Of a stretch of 25,380 nt of DNA, positions 13,927 to 22,553 are shown piece by piece. Position 1 is the first letter of the stretch, and every line of letters starts with the position of its first letter. The translations under genes and the position numbers were made by a program. Under the pieces are notes generated by a model, which saw only the letters and a program-made list of their open reading frames with translations, was not told the DNA's origin and made no database searches. The stretch is from Butyrivibrio sp. (lineage in GTDB: Bacteria; Bacillota_A; Clostridia; Lachnospirales; Lachnospiraceae), in assembly GCA_024690635.1 (NCBI GenBank), contig JAILOW010000174.1:1-25380 (forward strand), in the 5' to 3' direction.

Positions 13927-14436
13927 ATGAATAAAGACAATATCATCCTTATCGGAATGCCCACTTCAGGAAAAAGCACCGTAGGTGTCATCCTTGCCAA
14001 GATCCTGGGCTACAAATTTATAGATGCGGACATCGTCATCCAGGAAAAGGAGAAAAGAAAGCTCTCTGAGATAATAGCATCCGACGGGATTGACGGCTTT
14101 ATAGACATTGAGAATAAAGTAAATGCAGGCATTGACTGCACAAACACCATCATAGCCACCGGCGGAAGTGTGGTTTACGGACGTCAGGCCATGGAACACT
14201 ATAAAGAGATCGGATGCGTTGTTTATCTCAAGGTAAGCTTTGAAACATTAAAAAAGCGCCTCCATCATGCAAAACAAAGGGGCGTTGTCATAAAAGAAGG
14301 TCAGACTCTTGAGTCCTTATACAAAGAACGCGTACTCCTCTACGAGAAGTACGCGGATATCGTTATTGATGAAGGTGATGATTCCCTTGAGGATGTTGTT
14401 GCAAAAGCCACAGAGATCATCCACTGTACTGACTGA
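13927..14436 (+). CDS. Shikimate-kinase-like P-loop kinase with altered substrate site
   Basis: A 169-residue kinase with the shikimate kinase fold. Walker A is GMPTSGKST (10-18), FIDAD gives Asp33/Asp35, ATGGS lies at 77-81, and the lid segment KQRGVVIKEG is followed by ERVLLYEKYAD with Arg135. Classical shikimate kinase has FRxxE, whose Arg binds the shikimate carboxylate; the aligned stretch here is FIDIE (58-62), with Ile59 in place of that Arg. The usual GGG is GGS. The true substrate may therefore differ. No other aromatic-pathway gene is nearby. The ATG has AAAGGA 9 bases upstream; an in-frame TTG at 13909 is rejected. Its last 20 bases overlap the end of the opposite-strand lipoprotein gene. 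Confidence 0.82.
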   Translation: MNKDNIILIGMPTSGKSTVGVILAKILGYKFIDADIVIQEKEKRKLSEIIASDGIDGFIDIENKVNAGIDCTNTIIATGGSVVYGRQAMEHYKEIGCVVYLKVSFETLKKRLHHAKQRGVVIKEGQTLESLYKERVLLYEKYADIVIDEGDDSLEDVVAKATEIIHCTD

Positions 14437-15421
14437 CATTGGTGGAATCCACAGGTACGAAAGGCACGTAGATATACTTGCCGTCGGAGGTTGCTCCTTC
14501 GATACCGGTGATGGATCCGCCTCCCGCCATGACTGCAGCGGCTGATACTGCAGCTGCTGCCTGATTCTTGGCATCCTGAAGTACGGTAAATGCCATCTCA
14601 CCTGCCATAATGGATGCACAGCCGTCTGCTGTTGCATCAACGCCGCAGACAGGGATGGTGTTGTAATCAAGTCCGTACTGTTTCATTCCTTCTATAACTC
14701 CAAGGGCCATGGAATCGTTGTTGCAAAAGATAGCGTCTACATTCTGGCCTGTCTTCATGAATATTCCAAGCTTTGTCTTTGCTTCTGCATCAGACCAGTC
14801 TGCATAATCCACGAAAACATAGTTTGCATTACAGCCGTTTTCTTTTAATGTTCTCTTTACCGCCTTGGTTCTTCCGATAGTTGCGGAATGGCCTGCCTCA
14901 CCCTCAAAGATGATAACATCAAGGCTCTTGGGATTTCCAAGTCTCTTTAATACATATTCAGCCTGATACTGTCCGGACTGCATTTCATCGGATCCCACAT
15001 AAACATATTTGCTGTCCTCAAGATGGCTTGAAGAAGGCTCGTTGTTTACATAGACAATGGGAATATCGTTGGAGGCAACGTTCATCTGAAGCGCAGTGCC
15101 TGGATCAGCTGACCTTAAAATGATAGCGCCATAGCCTGCTGCCTTAGCCTTGGATACCTCTGCAACCTGTGCTGCCACATCATCTCCTGTTTCAACCACA
15201 TCAAGGGCAACTTTCTGATTTGCTGCAGCATTTTCTATGCTGGATGAAAGAAGTTCTCTGAAAGTATCGTTTCTGTCTGTGACAATATATAAAACCTTAG
15301 CATTGCCCGCAGCTTTGGCTGAAGAAGATCCGGAGGAAGCATTTCCGCATCCCATAAGTGTAAGGGCAAGTAATGCTGTTAATAAAATATATGAGATCAG
15401 TCTTTTGTTATTGTTCTTCAT
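14417..15421 (-). CDS. Sugar-type periplasmic-binding-protein-like lipoprotein
   Basis: A 334-residue secreted lipoprotein. The signal sequence has a basic N-terminus and a hydrophobic core, ending in the lipobox LMGC with lipidated Cys25. A Ser/Ala-rich linker follows, then a type-1 periplasmic-binding fold of the ribose/galactose kind (PF13407-like), with VLYIVTDRNDTF, IILRSADP, YVGSDEMQSGQ, IFCNNDSMALG and PVCGVDATADG. The ATG at 15421 has AAGGAAGG 7 bases upstream; the frame is open further up but that part is shadow. It starts 13 bases after the chemoreceptor's stop codon and there is no ABC ATPase or permease in the window. It may therefore present ligand to that receptor rather than feed a transporter (inference). 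Confidence 0.88.
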   Translation of the reverse strand: MKNNNKRLISYILLTALLALTLMGCGNASSGSSSAKAAGNAKVLYIVTDRNDTFRELLSSSIENAAANQKVALDVVETGDDVAAQVAEVSKAKAAGYGAIILRSADPGTALQMNVASNDIPIVYVNNEPSSSHLEDSKYVYVGSDEMQSGQYQAEYVLKRLGNPKSLDVIIFEGEAGHSATIGRTKAVKRTLKENGCNANYVFVDYADWSDAEAKTKLGIFMKTGQNVDAIFCNNDSMALGVIEGMKQYGLDYNTIPVCGVDATADGCASIMAGEMAFTVLQDAKNQAAAAVSAAAVMAGGGSITGIEGATSDGKYIYVPFVPVDSTNVSQYSG

Positions 15422-15434
15422 GCTACTACCTTCC

Positions 15435-17429
15435 TTAAATTCTAAACTTCTGAACATAGCTTGTAAGTGTCTTGGATGTATCCGCAAGTTCCTGAGAATT
15501 GTCGGCAACATCCTGACTGTTCTTAGTGATATTTTCAGCCATCTGTACCATGTTCTCGGAAGTTGCAAGGATCTCATCGGCACTGGCTGCCTGTTCCTCG
15601 GAAATCGCTGCCACATTGGTTGCAACTTCATCAACCTTGCCTACGTCTTCGATCATAGCCTCAATAAGAGCGTTGGATGCCTCGATATTGGTATATATCT
15701 GTTCAAAGGTATCAACAGCCACATTTATAAGCTCGCTGTTCTCACGGATGCTCTCGGCACTTGCCTGAGCCTGTCCCACAGCATCTGCTATGAGCCTGTG
15801 GACCTCATCGATAAGTGCTGAAATACTGTTTGCACTCTGAGCGGAGGTCTGAGCAAGCTTGGCTATCTGGGTAGCTACCACCGCAAAGCCTCTTCCTGCC
15901 TCTCCTGCTCTTGCAGCCTCGATAGAAGCATTAAGAGATAAGAGATTTGTCTCATCTGCGATCTCACTGATCATTCCGACGATAGCAGTGATCTCTTCGG
16001 AAGCGGAACCAACCTTATTGATGGACTCAACGAGTTCGCTGTTGGCATTTTCAATTCCGCTCATGGCTTCGCTTACTTTTTCCATATCCTGTCGGCCTTT
16101 TTCGGAAATGCCCACAGTTTCTTTCATGCTCTCGTTTGCCTTTTCGCTGTTTTCTCTTGTATCCGCAACTACCTGTGCCAGAGTTGTGGCATTGGAAGCG
16201 ATGTCATTTACCGCGGTTGCAAGCTGATCAACGGTTTCGTTCAGCTGCTTCATGGCTTCAGACTGAGACTGCGAAGCATCAAACATGGACTTTGAAACCA
16301 TATCGGAGCTGTCGGACTCCTCTTTTAACTTATCGGATTCCTGACTGATACTTGCAAGCATACTTCTCATGGAAGTCACAAACTCGGATATCTTGCCGCC
16401 CATGACTCCGATCTCGTCGTTGGACCTTGTATCCACTTCTATTGTGAAATCACCTTCGGACATAGCCTTGATGTTATCGGAAATATGTCCGAGAGGAGCA
16501 ACAACCTTTTTAACAACATAGAGTATTGAAAGAACTATGAGAACAACCGCAACTGCTCCGATGATGATGAGTATATTTCCAAGCTGTCTTACGGAACGAA
16601 GGATCACTTTCGTGGGAATATAGGATACAAGCACCCAGTCGGTTCCCTTGATCTCCCTGAAGGCAGTCATATAATTGCCTATGGTCTGTGTGGTAAGATC
16701 TCCGTCACTGATGGCACGTGCTGCGCCTGCAAGGATCGGATCCTTGCTGCCTGTGCTGAGTGTTGAAAATACAAGAGAATTGTCCCTGTGCGCCAGAATG
16801 GTATTGTCTGTTGTATCCACAAGGAAGGAGCTTGCATTGCTCATCTTTACTCCGGAATTAACGATGATGCTTATGGCATTTAAAGAAACGTCAACGCCGA
16901 TGACTCTGAGCTCTTCTCCGCCGTCGTTTACGATACCGGTAGCACTTACAACCGTCTCGCCTGTGCTTTTTTCGTATGCGGTTCCGTATGCCATATCTAC
17001 TCTTGAAAGGCCCTGCTTGTACCATATGCTATTAAGAACATCGCTCTCTTCAAAAGGAGATAACCTTGCTTTATAAAGCTTGCCTGCGGCAGTTCCTATG
17101 TAGAAGCCCTCAGGCGAGTTCTTGTCATATCCGTAATAGGAATCAAGAACGATCTGAAGTTCAAGATCCGTCATATGCTTTGACTCGATCACATGCTTAA
17201 CTGTTGAGAAATACTTGAGATTCTCATTAAGCCATGATTCAATGTTTTCTCCCTGATTGTCTATTGAAGACTCTAGGGTCTCGGTAGCCATCTCCGTCAT
17301 TCTCGTCTCCGAGATACGTGAAGAAACAGCAACCAGGACGATGATCGTGATCACAACAAGCGGGACTATATAAGTCAAAAGCTTGGTACTGATCTTTCTG
17401 ATCCTTTTCTTTTTTCCGTTCTTTTCCAT
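15435..17429 (-). CDS. Methyl-accepting chemotaxis protein with dCache sensor domain
   Basis: A 664-residue transmembrane receptor. A basic N-terminus leads into TM1 (about 17-36). The extracytoplasmic double-Cache-like sensor spans about 40-280, with WYKQG (136-140), VVSATGIV and IGVDVSL. TM2 (about 284-306) is followed by a HAMP domain (about 308-360) and a long cytoplasmic coiled coil whose tip ETNLLSLNASIEAARAGE lies at about 493-510. The Arg expected two residues before WY in amino-acid-binding dCache domains is Ser134 here, so an amino acid ligand is not supported. There is no CheR-docking pentapeptide at the C-terminus. AAGGTGG lies 8 bases before the ATG. First gene of a two-gene operon with the binding lipoprotein. 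Confidence 0.95.
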   Translation of the reverse strand: MEKNGKKKRIRKISTKLLTYIVPLVVITIIVLVAVSSRISETRMTEMATETLESSIDNQGENIESWLNENLKYFSTVKHVIESKHMTDLELQIVLDSYYGYDKNSPEGFYIGTAAGKLYKARLSPFEESDVLNSIWYKQGLSRVDMAYGTAYEKSTGETVVSATGIVNDGGEELRVIGVDVSLNAISIIVNSGVKMSNASSFLVDTTDNTILAHRDNSLVFSTLSTGSKDPILAGAARAISDGDLTTQTIGNYMTAFREIKGTDWVLVSYIPTKVILRSVRQLGNILIIIGAVAVVLIVLSILYVVKKVVAPLGHISDNIKAMSEGDFTIEVDTRSNDEIGVMGGKISEFVTSMRSMLASISQESDKLKEESDSSDMVSKSMFDASQSQSEAMKQLNETVDQLATAVNDIASNATTLAQVVADTRENSEKANESMKETVGISEKGRQDMEKVSEAMSGIENANSELVESINKVGSASEEITAIVGMISEIADETNLLSLNASIEAARAGEAGRGFAVVATQIAKLAQTSAQSANSISALIDEVHRLIADAVGQAQASAESIRENSELINVAVDTFEQIYTNIEASNALIEAMIEDVGKVDEVATNVAAISEEQAASADEILATSENMVQMAENITKNSQDVADNSQELADTSKTLTSYVQKFRI

Positions 17430-18761: not shown

Positions 18762-21700
18762 ATGCAACAGCTTAAATCTTGGAAAACATGGCTATTTATC
18801 ATAATCTGCGTCGCATTTAATCTACTTGGCAGAGACATTGCCGGTACATTAAACCTGCCGTTGTGGATGGACGCCATGGGAACAATACTGGTAGCCATCA
18901 CTGCAGGCCCCATCAGCGGCGCTGTCTGCGGCTTACTCACCAATTCTATAATAGCATCTAAAGATATCGTCGCACTTCCATATATTCTTGTATCAATTAC
19001 AGTTGCTTTTGCTTCAGGTCTATATTATCCCAAAGTAAAAAATAAAAGCAACAGGACATTTCATATGGCTTCTGTGGCAATGGCCACCGGTTTTGCCGCA
19101 GCTCTTATTTCAACGCCCTTAAATATAATCATCTACGGCGGCTCCACAGGAAATTCCTGGGGAGACAGTCTAATGGAGATGCTCTCCAACGACGTTCACG
19201 TCCCCATTCTCAATTCATTTATAGGAGAAGCCTTTGTGGACATTCCCGACAAGGCTTTCAGCTTTTTCATTGCCCTTGGTCTTATAGCTTTTTACAAGCT
19301 CATCACCGGAAAAGGAAAAAAGCTCCCTCTTACATTTATGATCCTTGCCACAATATCGGCAGCACTCATCCCGTCATTCCCTTCGCATGCACAGAACTTT
19401 GCAGCGGAATATGCAGGAGATGTTTACGACACAGAGTTCGGCCTTGCCTCCGTTGAGATAACCGCCATTGCTCAGACAAGCGACGGATACATATGGGCAG
19501 GAACCTATTCAGGAATCTACAGATACGACGGCTACAGATTCAATGCCATGAACCTTGATGTTCGCATCAACAACGTAATGTGCCTTTATGTGGACAGCAA
19601 AAACAGGCTGTGGATCGGAACCAACGACAGCGGCGTAGTCTGCTATGAGCCCTTAACCGAAGAGATCAGATTTTACACAGTCAATGAAGGTCTTGCCTCC
19701 AACTCCATCAGATCCCTGACGGAAGACTCCGAGGGCAATATCTTTGTGGCAACTGTCAATCAGCTTTGCTCCATATCTCCCGATTCGGAGATCACAGTCT
19801 TTTCGGAAAAGAGCTTTTACGGAATCGAAAAGCTCAGCGCCAGCAAAGATGTGGTGGCTGCCATCAGAGGAGACGGCGATGTGCTCATAATCAAAAATAA
19901 CCGTATGTCCTACCTCATCGCAGGCGATTACACAGCCATCAGCACTCAGAACAACGGTAACTTCGTTCTGGGTACAGGCAGCAACCAAACTGCTCTCCTT
20001 CGCCTTGGCAATGGCAGTGTCGACATAATAAACAAATATCACTCGGACAGAATTAATTATTACAACGACATTCTCTACTCGAAGGAATTCGGCGGCTACT
20101 TCGTGGCTTGTGAAAACGGACTTGGTTTCATGACCGACGAAGGTGTTTTCATCAGTATGACCGCAGATAACTTCGACAGTTCCATAGACGATATCCTGAT
20201 AGATTATCAGGGCAACATATGGTTTGCCTCCAGCAAGCAGGGTATCAAGCGATTTACCTGGAACCCCTTCGAGGACATCTTTTCAAGAGCCAAGCTGGAC
20301 AGCGAAGTAGTTAACAGTGTCATCATAAAAAACGGACTTTTGTATGTAGGTACAGGTTCAGGTCTTTACACCATCGATCTTAAAACCTACTACTCCGTTC
20401 CCATTCCCTTTCCTGCGTACCTGAAAAATGTCAGGATCAGGGATATCATGTGCGACAACGATGATAACATCTGGTTTAGTACCTACGGCGAGCACGGACT
20501 TATTCAGCTAAAGTCGGATCACACCATAGATTATTACAACGTCAGAAAAGCCGGAACTTTGGGCGACAGATTCAGATTTGCCATGCAGCTTTCCGACGGA
20601 ACGATCATGGCATCCGACAACTCCGGCATCGATTTTATCAAGAACAATGAGGTCATCGGAACTCTGGGCGAAGTTGACGGCATCAACGCTCCGGTACTTT
20701 GCGCCATAGAAGATGCCAACCATACAGTGTATGCCGGCTCCGACGGTGACGGAATATATGTCATCAGAGAAGGTGCTGTTGTAGATCGCATCGACGAAAA
20801 CGACGGTCTCGGAACCATGGTTGTGTTAAAGATAATCCCCTGCAAGGGCGGATACATCTACGTGACCAGCAATGCTCTCTACTACTCAAGGGACGGATTT
20901 ATCAGCAAGTTAAAGAACTTCCCTTACAGTAACAACTACGATGTTTACCTTCCCGGCGACGGAAATGCCTGGGTGCTCTCCAGTGCCGGTATCTACGTTG
21001 TCAGCGAAAGTGCTCTGATACAGGATGAAGTATACAACTACGCTCTTCTTAATAAGAGCCGTGGACTTTACTCCTCCGTAACCGCCGACTCTTCCTATAC
21101 CGTAAAGGACGATATGCTTTACCTTTGCTGTACGGACGGTGTCAGCAGGATTTCGGTAAAAAATTACAGCTCCTTCCACAACAATTTCAACATCCTCATA
21201 TCCAATCTGTATGTGGATGATCAGCGAATAAAGGAAAAGGACGGTATATATAATATCCCTCCAACCTCAGGACGTATTCTCTTTGATGTGGCGGTATTAA
21301 ACTACAACCTTTCCAATCCTCTTTTGCACATATATCTGGAAGGCGCAGAGGACGAAGGTGTCACCTGCTATCAGAACGATATGAAGGAACTTACCTTCAC
21401 CAACCTGCCCTACGGCAATTATCAGCTGCATGTTCAGGTTATGGATTCCTCCGGAAGCACCATTTACCGCGAGGAGATCTTCCACATCCACAAGGAATCA
21501 AGACTGTTTGAACGGCCTTATTTCAAAGCATATCTGGCCTTCATAATATCGCTTCTTGTCATGTACATAGGCTGGGCCATCGGTAATATCATCCAGAACG
21601 CCAACTCTCTTGAGAAATGGCAGAACGCCGCAACCCAGGATCCTCTCACAGGTCTTTTGAACAAGCGTGGTTCACAGGAAATTCTGGAAGAAGCCTGCAA

Positions 21701-22553
21701 GAATGACAAAGGTATTTTGACCATCCTTGACCTTGACAGTTTCAAGCCCATCAATGATATTTACGGACACAGCATGGGTGACAGAATACTGGTTGCAGTA
21801 GCCCGTCTCATGCAGACCTGTACCCGTGAAGAAGATATCCTCTGCCGTGTGGGCGGTGATGAGTTTATCATGTTCCTTAAATATGCCGAGAGAGATGAAG
21901 TCGTAGCTGACAAGACCAATTATATAAATGTAGAGCTTTTAAAGACCGCCAGAACCCTTATAGGAAAAGATATGGAGATTCCCCTCGGAATATCCATAGG
22001 AGCCGTAAAAGCCCCTGCAGAAGGCACAGATTACGCAGAGCTTTTAAAGAAAGCCGACAAAGCGCTCTACACCGTCAAGAACAACGGAAAGCACGGATAC
22101 AGCATCTACAGCTCATCCAAAAACAACAGTTCCATCTCCGTAGCCCAGGAAGCATCAGGAAGCCTTGTTAGTCTTCGAAAGATCCTGAATGAGCGTACCA
22201 CCACAGACGGAGCCTACAGACTTGATTATGATTCACTTCAGGACACCTACAGACTCATGCGAAGGATGTCCAAGGTATCCATCATAAAAGCTGAGCTTGC
22301 ACAGTTTACAGTAAGGTCCAAGAGCGGCGGCGAAATAGAAAGAGACGTCATGGACAGGTTCTATGAAATAGTAAAGACCTCTCTTCTAAAGTCGGACATG
22401 TACACCATAGACGGCAAGAACAAAGTATTCATCATAATGCCCAATATCAACAAGCCAAGAGAAAACGATAACCTCGCTGATATCATGAAAAAATGGGAAG
22501 CACTTCCGGAATCAGAAAATTACGAAGTATTTGTTGAGTGGGAAGAACTGTAA
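18762..22553 (+). CDS. Receptor-type diguanylate cyclase: ECF-S-like membrane domain, propeller, Y_Y_Y, GGDEF, C-terminal module
   Basis: A 1263-residue transmembrane protein predicted to make c-di-GMP in response to an extracellular signal. Residues 1-206 are a six- or seven-helix domain resembling ECF transporter S components (DAMGTILVAITAGPISGA at 37-54). SFPSHA-QN (205-212) looks like a signal-peptide end. Residues 215-800 are two-component-regulator propeller repeats (IWAGTYSGIYRYDG 244-257, LWIGTNDSG 283-291, IWFASSKQGI 486-495, LYVGTGSGLYTID 527-539). A Y_Y_Y domain (832-898) and a membrane helix (920-943) follow. The GGDEF domain (about 953-1117) has DPLTGLLNKRG, DLDSFKPINDIYGH and an intact GGDEF at 1031-1035; Arg1022 and Asp1025 form the product-inhibition RxxD site five residues before it. 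Residues 1136-1263 resemble a degenerate second GGDEF. No ECF energising genes are near, so the first domain may sense rather than transport. Confidence 0.88.
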   Translation: MQQLKSWKTWLFIIICVAFNLLGRDIAGTLNLPLWMDAMGTILVAITAGPISGAVCGLLTNSIIASKDIVALPYILVSITVAFASGLYYPKVKNKSNRTFHMASVAMATGFAAALISTPLNIIIYGGSTGNSWGDSLMEMLSNDVHVPILNSFIGEAFVDIPDKAFSFFIALGLIAFYKLITGKGKKLPLTFMILATISAALIPSFPSHAQNFAAEYAGDVYDTEFGLASVEITAIAQTSDGYIWAGTYSGIYRYDGYRFNAMNLDVRINNVMCLYVDSKNRLWIGTNDSGVVCYEPLTEEIRFYTVNEGLASNSIRSLTEDSEGNIFVATVNQLCSISPDSEITVFSEKSFYGIEKLSASKDVVAAIRGDGDVLIIKNNRMSYLIAGDYTAISTQNNGNFVLGTGSNQTALLRLGNGSVDIINKYHSDRINYYNDILYSKEFGGYFVACENGLGFMTDEGVFISMTADNFDSSIDDILIDYQGNIWFASSKQGIKRFTWNPFEDIFSRAKLDSEVVNSVIIKNGLLYVGTGSGLYTIDLKTYYSVPIPFPAYLKNVRIRDIMCDNDDNIWFSTYGEHGLIQLKSDHTIDYYNVRKAGTLGDRFRFAMQLSDGTIMASDNSGIDFIKNNEVIGTLGEVDGINAPVLCAIEDANHTVYAGSDGDGIYVIREGAVVDRIDENDGLGTMVVLKIIPCKGGYIYVTSNALYYSRDGFISKLKNFPYSNNYDVYLPGDGNAWVLSSAGIYVVSESALIQDEVYNYALLNKSRGLYSSVTADSSYTVKDDMLYLCCTDGVSRISVKNYSSFHNNFNILISNLYVDDQRIKEKDGIYNIPPTSGRILFDVAVLNYNLSNPLLHIYLEGAEDEGVTCYQNDMKELTFTNLPYGNYQLHVQVMDSSGSTIYREEIFHIHKESRLFERPYFKAYLAFIISLLVMYIGWAIGNIIQNANSLEKWQNAATQDPLTGLLNKRGSQEILEEACKNDKGILTILDLDSFKPINDIYGHSMGDRILVAVARLMQTCTREEDILCRVGGDEFIMFLKYAERDEVVADKTNYINVELLKTARTLIGKDMEIPLGISIGAVKAPAEGTDYAELLKKADKALYTVKNNGKHGYSIYSSSKNNSSISVAQEASGSLVSLRKILNERTTTDGAYRLDYDSLQDTYRLMRRMSKVSIIKAELAQFTVRSKSGGEIERDVMDRFYEIVKTSLLKSDMYTIDGKNKVFIIMPNINKPRENDNLADIMKKWEALPESENYEVFVEWEEL

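Follow-up and report, generated by a model that had tools for sequence, protein, structure and literature searches.

A Butyrivibrio gene joining an S-component-type membrane domain, an internal signal peptide, a propeller and a diguanylate cyclase

The gene described here is a single open reading frame (ORF) on a 25,380-nucleotide contig of Butyrivibrio sp. (GenBank assembly GCA_024690635.1, contig JAILOW010000174.1, positions 1 to 25,380 of the forward strand; this whole stretch is called the window). We consider it probable, though well short of certain, that its product is a Lachnospiraceae transmembrane cyclic di-GMP (c-di-GMP) receptor whose N-terminal six-helix domain is an energy-coupling factor (ECF) S component recruited for sensing. 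The computed basis for this reading is the S-component fold, kinship with free S components equipped with EcfT and EcfA, loss of a helix-1 face in most receptors and conservation of predicted pocket-side residues, together with the internal signal peptide, the propeller and Y_Y_Y domains and the intact GGDEF domain that follow. The features of the gene are as follows.

18762..22553, + strand: whole ORF; ATG start, 1,263 aa, uninterrupted frame
18762..19322, + strand: S-component-type membrane domain, six helices (residues 1-187)
18855..18872, + strand: LPxWxD motif in the helix 1-2 loop (residues 32-37)
19146..19166, + strand: TGN-x-WGD motif in the predicted outer loop preceding helix 6 (residues 129-135)
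19323..19391, + strand: helix 7 / internal signal peptide (residues 188-210), with a signal peptidase I-type site S-H-A at 208-210
19392..21296, + strand: extracellular propeller region (about residues 211-845); Reg_prop, PDB 4a2l
21306..21491, + strand: Y_Y_Y domain (residues 849-910); Pfam E 4.9e-9
21522..21596, + strand: transmembrane helix 8 (residues 921-945), from hydropathy
21630..22091, + strand: GGDEF diguanylate cyclase domain (residues 957-1110); Pfam E 9.1e-36
21825..21836, + strand: I-site RxxD (residues 1022-1025)
21852..21866, + strand: GGDEF signature (residues 1031-1035)
22164..22550, + strand: degenerate GGDEF-like C-terminal domain (about residues 1135-1263)

The N-terminal domain has the six-helix fold of S components and is related in sequence to free S components, with whose start its first long helix (residues 7-30) aligns. 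NCBIfam NF045596 (CD3073 putative ECF S component) matched residues 13-176 with E 4e-19 and 68.9 bits (cut-off 180), and Pfam ECF_trnsprt (PF12822) matched residues 15-125 with E 0.0064 and 17 bits (cut-off 30.7). Because both matches fall under the curated cut-offs, the protein is not a CD3073 equivalog or a PF12822 member as curated. PF07694 (5TMR-LYT) scored 14.0 bits, below its cut-off of 24.6, and the 11 Pfam families listed at E values up to 1 included no MASE profile; MASE and plain 5TMR identities were discarded, as neither matches over cut-off. Fold and sequence support the S-component-like N-terminus of a preliminary description made from the sequence alone, which had placed it at residues 1-206. 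That extent does not hold, since the domain ends near residue 187 and residues 188-210 form a seventh helix resembling a signal peptide.

Topology was read from charge and homology by comparison with ThiT. Helix 1 would run from inside to outside, leaving the LPxWxD loop outside, with GP49-50 forming the turn on the inner side. Residues 89-98, rich in K and R, and the KK-rich end that follows helix 6 are predicted to be inside, and TGN-WGD outside. Consistent with such a topology, a kinase lies ahead of the S domain at three loci (L006:6474-12467, L012:6471-12497 and L015:2814-8792). Each encodes a protein of ~2,000 residues bearing two histidine kinases, in the order HisKA/HATPase, S domain, signal peptide, propeller, and hybrid kinase with REC and Hpt.

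Kinship was assessed in a tree of 104 S domains, from 40 free S proteins, 49 propeller receptors and 15 Cache-like receptors. Loci L071 and L098 and frames longer than 400 aa (L080, L083, L084, L087 and L089) were left out of the free S proteins, and L083 and L084 entered the tree as receptors. Group labels (TGN-WGD, TudS, nucleoside hydrolase, other) were our own assignment, and two rows labelled TudS (L091, L093) had no TudS neighbour in a later neighbour search. A branch with 100/99 support separated 10 free TGN-WGD S components and all 49 propeller receptors from the remaining 45 domains, and the 49 propeller receptors formed one side of a 95/92 branch. The 15 Cache-like receptors were placed elsewhere, joined with nucleoside-hydrolase-linked S components (96/90). 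Constraining all 64 receptors together gave an approximately unbiased test p of 0.036, a weak rejection of a single receptor clade with groups that were named after the tree had been seen. If the transporter state is ancestral, which is an assumption about the root, an S component would have been recruited into receptors at least twice.

The closest free S components, which are of the TGN-WGD type and were retrieved by the receptor profile, average 34.7% identity to the window's S domain. Six residues not used in defining the TGN-WGD group (W35, Y74, N121, E156, D160 and P162) are common to receptors and TGN-WGD S components and are found in 0-37% of other free S proteins; among free S components, W35 occurs in the closest ones and in no others. 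Like the window's S domain, the free TGN-WGD proteins (L073/L117; Hungatella P0169) have N20, LPxWLDxIGT, GP, STPLN, TGN-WGD and D160/P162/D163. Unlike it, they are free 200-aa proteins beside EcfT/EcfA, without a signal peptide or output, and carry a small helix-1 face, P14/G18. Receptor-like S proteins of 191-195 aa (P0122, P0127-P0129, P0131 and P0132) were also seen, and may be fragments.

The remainder of the protein has the parts of a Reg_prop/Y_Y_Y sensor, with GGDEF in place of a histidine kinase output. Pfam Reg_prop matched in 5 stretches (E 1.2e-23) and the propeller region matched PDB 4a2l (E 5.6e-36); these, together with the Y_Y_Y match, bear out the propeller and Y_Y_Y domain first proposed. 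The GGDEF domain, described as intact and carrying its I-site, indeed looks active from its sequence, and its metal and substrate residues fall in D/F/K/N/D/G/H columns that are invariant in 20 sequences. PHROGs matches were confined to the GGDEF region. The ~130 C-terminal residues, absent from the preliminary description, form a further GGDEF-like domain: profile-profile comparison gave a probability of 90% over 45 columns, the predicted model is an alpha/beta domain, and the stretch after the active GGDEF is 150-169 residues long in 90 of 90 GGDEF homologues checked. No structural match covered this degenerate domain, which is probably regulatory or structural.

Helix 7 has the features of a signal peptidase I substrate, namely an n-region, an h-region and small residues at -3 and -1. 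In an alignment of 96 sequences, A210 is conserved in 92 (4.0 bits) although columns 186-207 average 1.3 bits, the -3 residue is V, A, S, I, T or L in 95, the -3/-1 rule (at our own setting) holds in 93, and a net charge of at least +2 lies ahead of the hydrophobic core in 87. A looser cleavage pattern fits 40 of 42 anchored sequences from a second set, which was reduced from 60 loci through 52 usable frames and partly overlaps the first, some genes duplicating members of the 96 or occurring twice. In fifteen homologues lacking the S domain, the N-terminus, as judged by eye, resembles a signal peptide and falls at the corresponding position. The helix after the S domain in 14 Cache-like/HD-GYP receptors shows no such cleavage site at its end, the conserved alanines of these receptors lying ~15-20 residues further on. 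Note that helix 8 is a weak control for these patterns, its orientation being opposite. From the diverged linker with a conserved A210, the S-less starts and the contrast with the Cache-like receptors, the S domain appears probably to have been inserted ahead of a complete signal peptide; cleavage after A210 at the predicted site is plausible but unproven.

The chance that the gene encodes a polyprotein is, in our estimate, a little under even. Signal peptidase I would cut after A210, releasing the S-type part as a membrane protein of its own and leaving a propeller/GGDEF receptor whose mature N-terminus would be an ordinary one; the two products may or may not remain associated. The conservation of A210 and of the -3 and charge rules, the looser pattern of the second set, the S-less starts and the lack of a site in the Cache-like/HD-GYP receptors all favour it, as do the kinases before the S domain in L006, L012 and L015, where both halves would retain an output. 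However, the motif may be a relic of a signal peptide that predates the fusion, and no clean naturally split pair of S domain and propeller was found beside free S components, with P0131 in 397 genomes or with P0122 in 79 genomes. At L145 (G160:C97), an in-frame stop within the stretch encoding the signal peptide is all that separates an S ORF from a propeller ORF, which probably reflects a disrupted gene or a faulty assembly. Internal signal peptides have a precedent in the Bradyrhizobium FbcH cytochrome bc1 precursor; the titles listed in a literature search included no bacterial case, and a bacterial receptor polyprotein cut in this way would, to our knowledge, be unusual. Because the conserved internal signal peptide may sever the S domain, the earlier proposal that one protein senses both a polymer-derived ligand and a small molecule in the membrane is weakened, and stands as one possibility.

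Alternatively, the S domain could be a mere anchor or dimerisation unit and the propeller the sole sensor. Receptors of the same kind do exist without an S domain, but the most strongly conserved positions of the domain include W35, D37, N131, W133 and D163, which are polar or aromatic, are predicted to face outward and would not be needed by an anchor; we regard this explanation as unlikely.

The window's protein has I14 and A18 in helix 1, and so does not present the small-xxx-small (AxxxA-type) face for EcfT docking. Small residues occupy both position 14 and position 18 in 35 of 40 free S proteins, against 4 of 49 propeller receptors and none of 15 Cache-like receptors (one row in each receptor set has no residue there), and the exact AxxxA is present in 6 of 40 free S proteins versus 1 of 49 propeller receptors. 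Excerpts of PMC11109136 tie absence of an AxxxA-type motif to receptor function and report that mutating either alanine of the helix-1 motif stops ThiT docking. EcfT was not matched within any of 30 receptor loci, the loci being the extent of that search, and an EcfA-like ATPase was matched at one, L028. That the S domain still pairs with a shared ECF module encoded at another genomic position, making a transporter-receptor that reports uptake to the cyclase, is very improbable: pocket-side residues are retained between receptors and ECF-linked S components and 4 of 49 receptors keep both small residues, but the face is not seen in the other 45 (in one for want of residues), the 30 loci are without EcfT, and loss of either alanine suffices to abolish ThiT docking (excerpts of PMC11109136).

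A possible ligand of the receptor S domain is suggested by the genes around its free relatives. EcfT and EcfA lie within 1.5 kb of 10 of 10 free TGN-WGD relatives, accompanied by a uridine-phosphorylase-like gene in 5 and an isochorismatase-family gene in 3; their wider loci contain a helix-turn-helix (HTH)/3H regulator (6 of 9) or a PfkB kinase (2 of 9). In NiaR, the 3H domain is the part that binds niacin (excerpts of PMC7713382). Among the free S proteins of the tree, 26 of 40 neighbour a gene of the nucleoside phosphorylase, nucleoside hydrolase or TudS type, against 0 of 30 receptor loci, the sole comparison set for that figure. Given these phosphorylases, hydrolases and 3H regulators, our best guess, at two removes, is that the receptor S domain still binds a small external ligand, predicted to be a nucleoside and perhaps a riboside precursor of nicotinamide adenine dinucleotide (NAD). 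The ECF operons at L117-L122 (S-T-AA') include an HTH/3H regulator of NiaR type and, variously, a nucleoside phosphorylase, an isochorismatase or a PfkB kinase; these loci are candidates for the uptake of NAD-precursor ribosides. At L061-L065, L067-L069, L090 and L092, S components of CD3073 type lie beside TudS-related desulfidase genes (CD3072), which hints that thiolated nucleobases or nucleosides may be taken up.

In the recruited-sensor reading, the S domain would bind a small external ligand, probably a nucleoside or NAD-precursor riboside, and, with EcfT docking lost, binding would alter its membrane packing against helix 8 and/or the propeller. The propeller may bind a second ligand. 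The change in packing would set the dimer state of the GGDEF domain and hence c-di-GMP output, with feedback at the I-site. Only tentatively do we put forward a fuller version, in which one gene would give a two-protein sensor: a transport-derived S component, released by signal peptidase at the internal signal peptide, would sense a nucleoside or NAD precursor and regulate the propeller diguanylate cyclase in the membrane, S components having been recruited at least twice in Lachnospiraceae with transporter kin still recognisable by sequence.

The layout of S domain, propeller and GGDEF is a real, recurrent Butyrivibrio family and not a one-off. A homologue search returned 686 proteins; architectures were judged on the 120 listed, most of which share the window's layout at 36-57% identity. 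Both this survey and the Pfam and NCBIfam profiles corroborate the originally proposed order of S-like domain, propeller, Y_Y_Y and GGDEF. Among listed homologues the output is swapped for HisKA/HATPase/REC, often with Hpt (e.g. P0089, P0094, P0096 and P0099), or for HD-GYP (P0115, P0118 and P0120), Pfam domains having been checked directly for P0089 and P0115; several others (including P0100-P0108) are missing the S domain. NF045596 matched in 94 of 250 genomes in the family of the Butyrivibrio isolate G001 and in 28 of 199 in its phylum, many of these matches being free S proteins or weak and 2 of 14 control genomes matching too. Within the genus of G001, P0122 matched in 57 of 79 genomes, and an S match lay inside a frame of at least 1,200 aa, a length taken as a proxy for architecture, in 43 of 79. 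Chance and assembly artefact were rejected on the recurrence in homologues and in those 43 genomes. Paired receptor-size S matches on the same strand, ~3.9 kb apart, in G622:C2, G630:C24 and G672:C57 are probably tandem receptor genes.

In the window, GGAG is located 10 nt upstream of the ATG, and the ORF has mnmA as its neighbour on one side, with tpiA, pgk and a partial gap gene on its other side. At 14417-17429 on the minus strand, a methyl-accepting chemotaxis protein adjoins an MglB-like sugar-binding protein. An Rfam scan of the window gave no family reaching its gathering score and no riboswitch. No telling neighbour gene recurred among the 30 receptor loci and the window, as judged by eye.

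According to excerpts of PMC11109136, the S-component fold is common to transporters and receptors, and its evolutionary origin is elusive. The 5TMR-LYT histidine kinases and GGDEF proteins treated there (PF07694; YpdA, BtsS) likewise use the fold as a receptor, some with GGDEF, but have an extra helix H0 first and a cytosolic output directly after helix 6; the window's protein lacks H0 and has a signal peptide and extracellular propeller after helix 6. Xanthomonas oryzae GdpX2 and GdpX3 (GGDEF) share the Reg_prop plus Y_Y_Y periplasmic sensor, but their description in excerpts of PMC6637768, on which the comparison is based, names no S-component or ECF domain. Reg_prop/Y_Y_Y hybrid two-component sensors (4a2l family) share the propeller plus Y_Y_Y ectodomain; in the window GGDEF replaces the kinase and an S domain precedes the signal peptide. 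The Lachnospiraceae S-domain/HD-GYP receptors (L036, L042, L054 and others) also have an N-terminal S domain and a c-di-GMP-type output, but belong to a different S branch, that near the nucleoside-hydrolase-linked S components, and have neither propeller nor AxA site. Receptors of ~700 residues that combine an S domain and HD-GYP with a middle domain, apparently extracellular (for which "Cache" is our own reading, no profile match naming it), were seen at L036, L038, L041-L043, L049, L050, L054 and L058-L060; L055 has a kinase in place of HD-GYP. Excerpts of a Butyrivibrio comparative-genomics paper (PMC6912079) contain a single mention of diguanylate cyclase and none of a propeller or ECF. 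Among the open-access papers listed in searches aimed at this layout, no title or abstract describes S domain, propeller and GGDEF together, which is not proof of absence; the earlier statement that no such system is described thus stands for the combined layout and fails for its pieces, as S-fold receptors and Reg_prop/Y_Y_Y-GGDEF proteins are published.

This family of S-fold receptors stands out for its traceable transporter kin, for the position of the S domain before an extracellular propeller and for the internal signal peptide. Because the receptor S domains adjoin ECF S components in a supported tree, the step from transport to sensing is visible in sequence, and the accompanying change, in which the EcfT face is lost and pocket-side residues are kept, is open to residue-by-residue testing. 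The arrangement suggests that Butyrivibrio, which degrade polysaccharides in the rumen, may tie c-di-GMP to two external cues.
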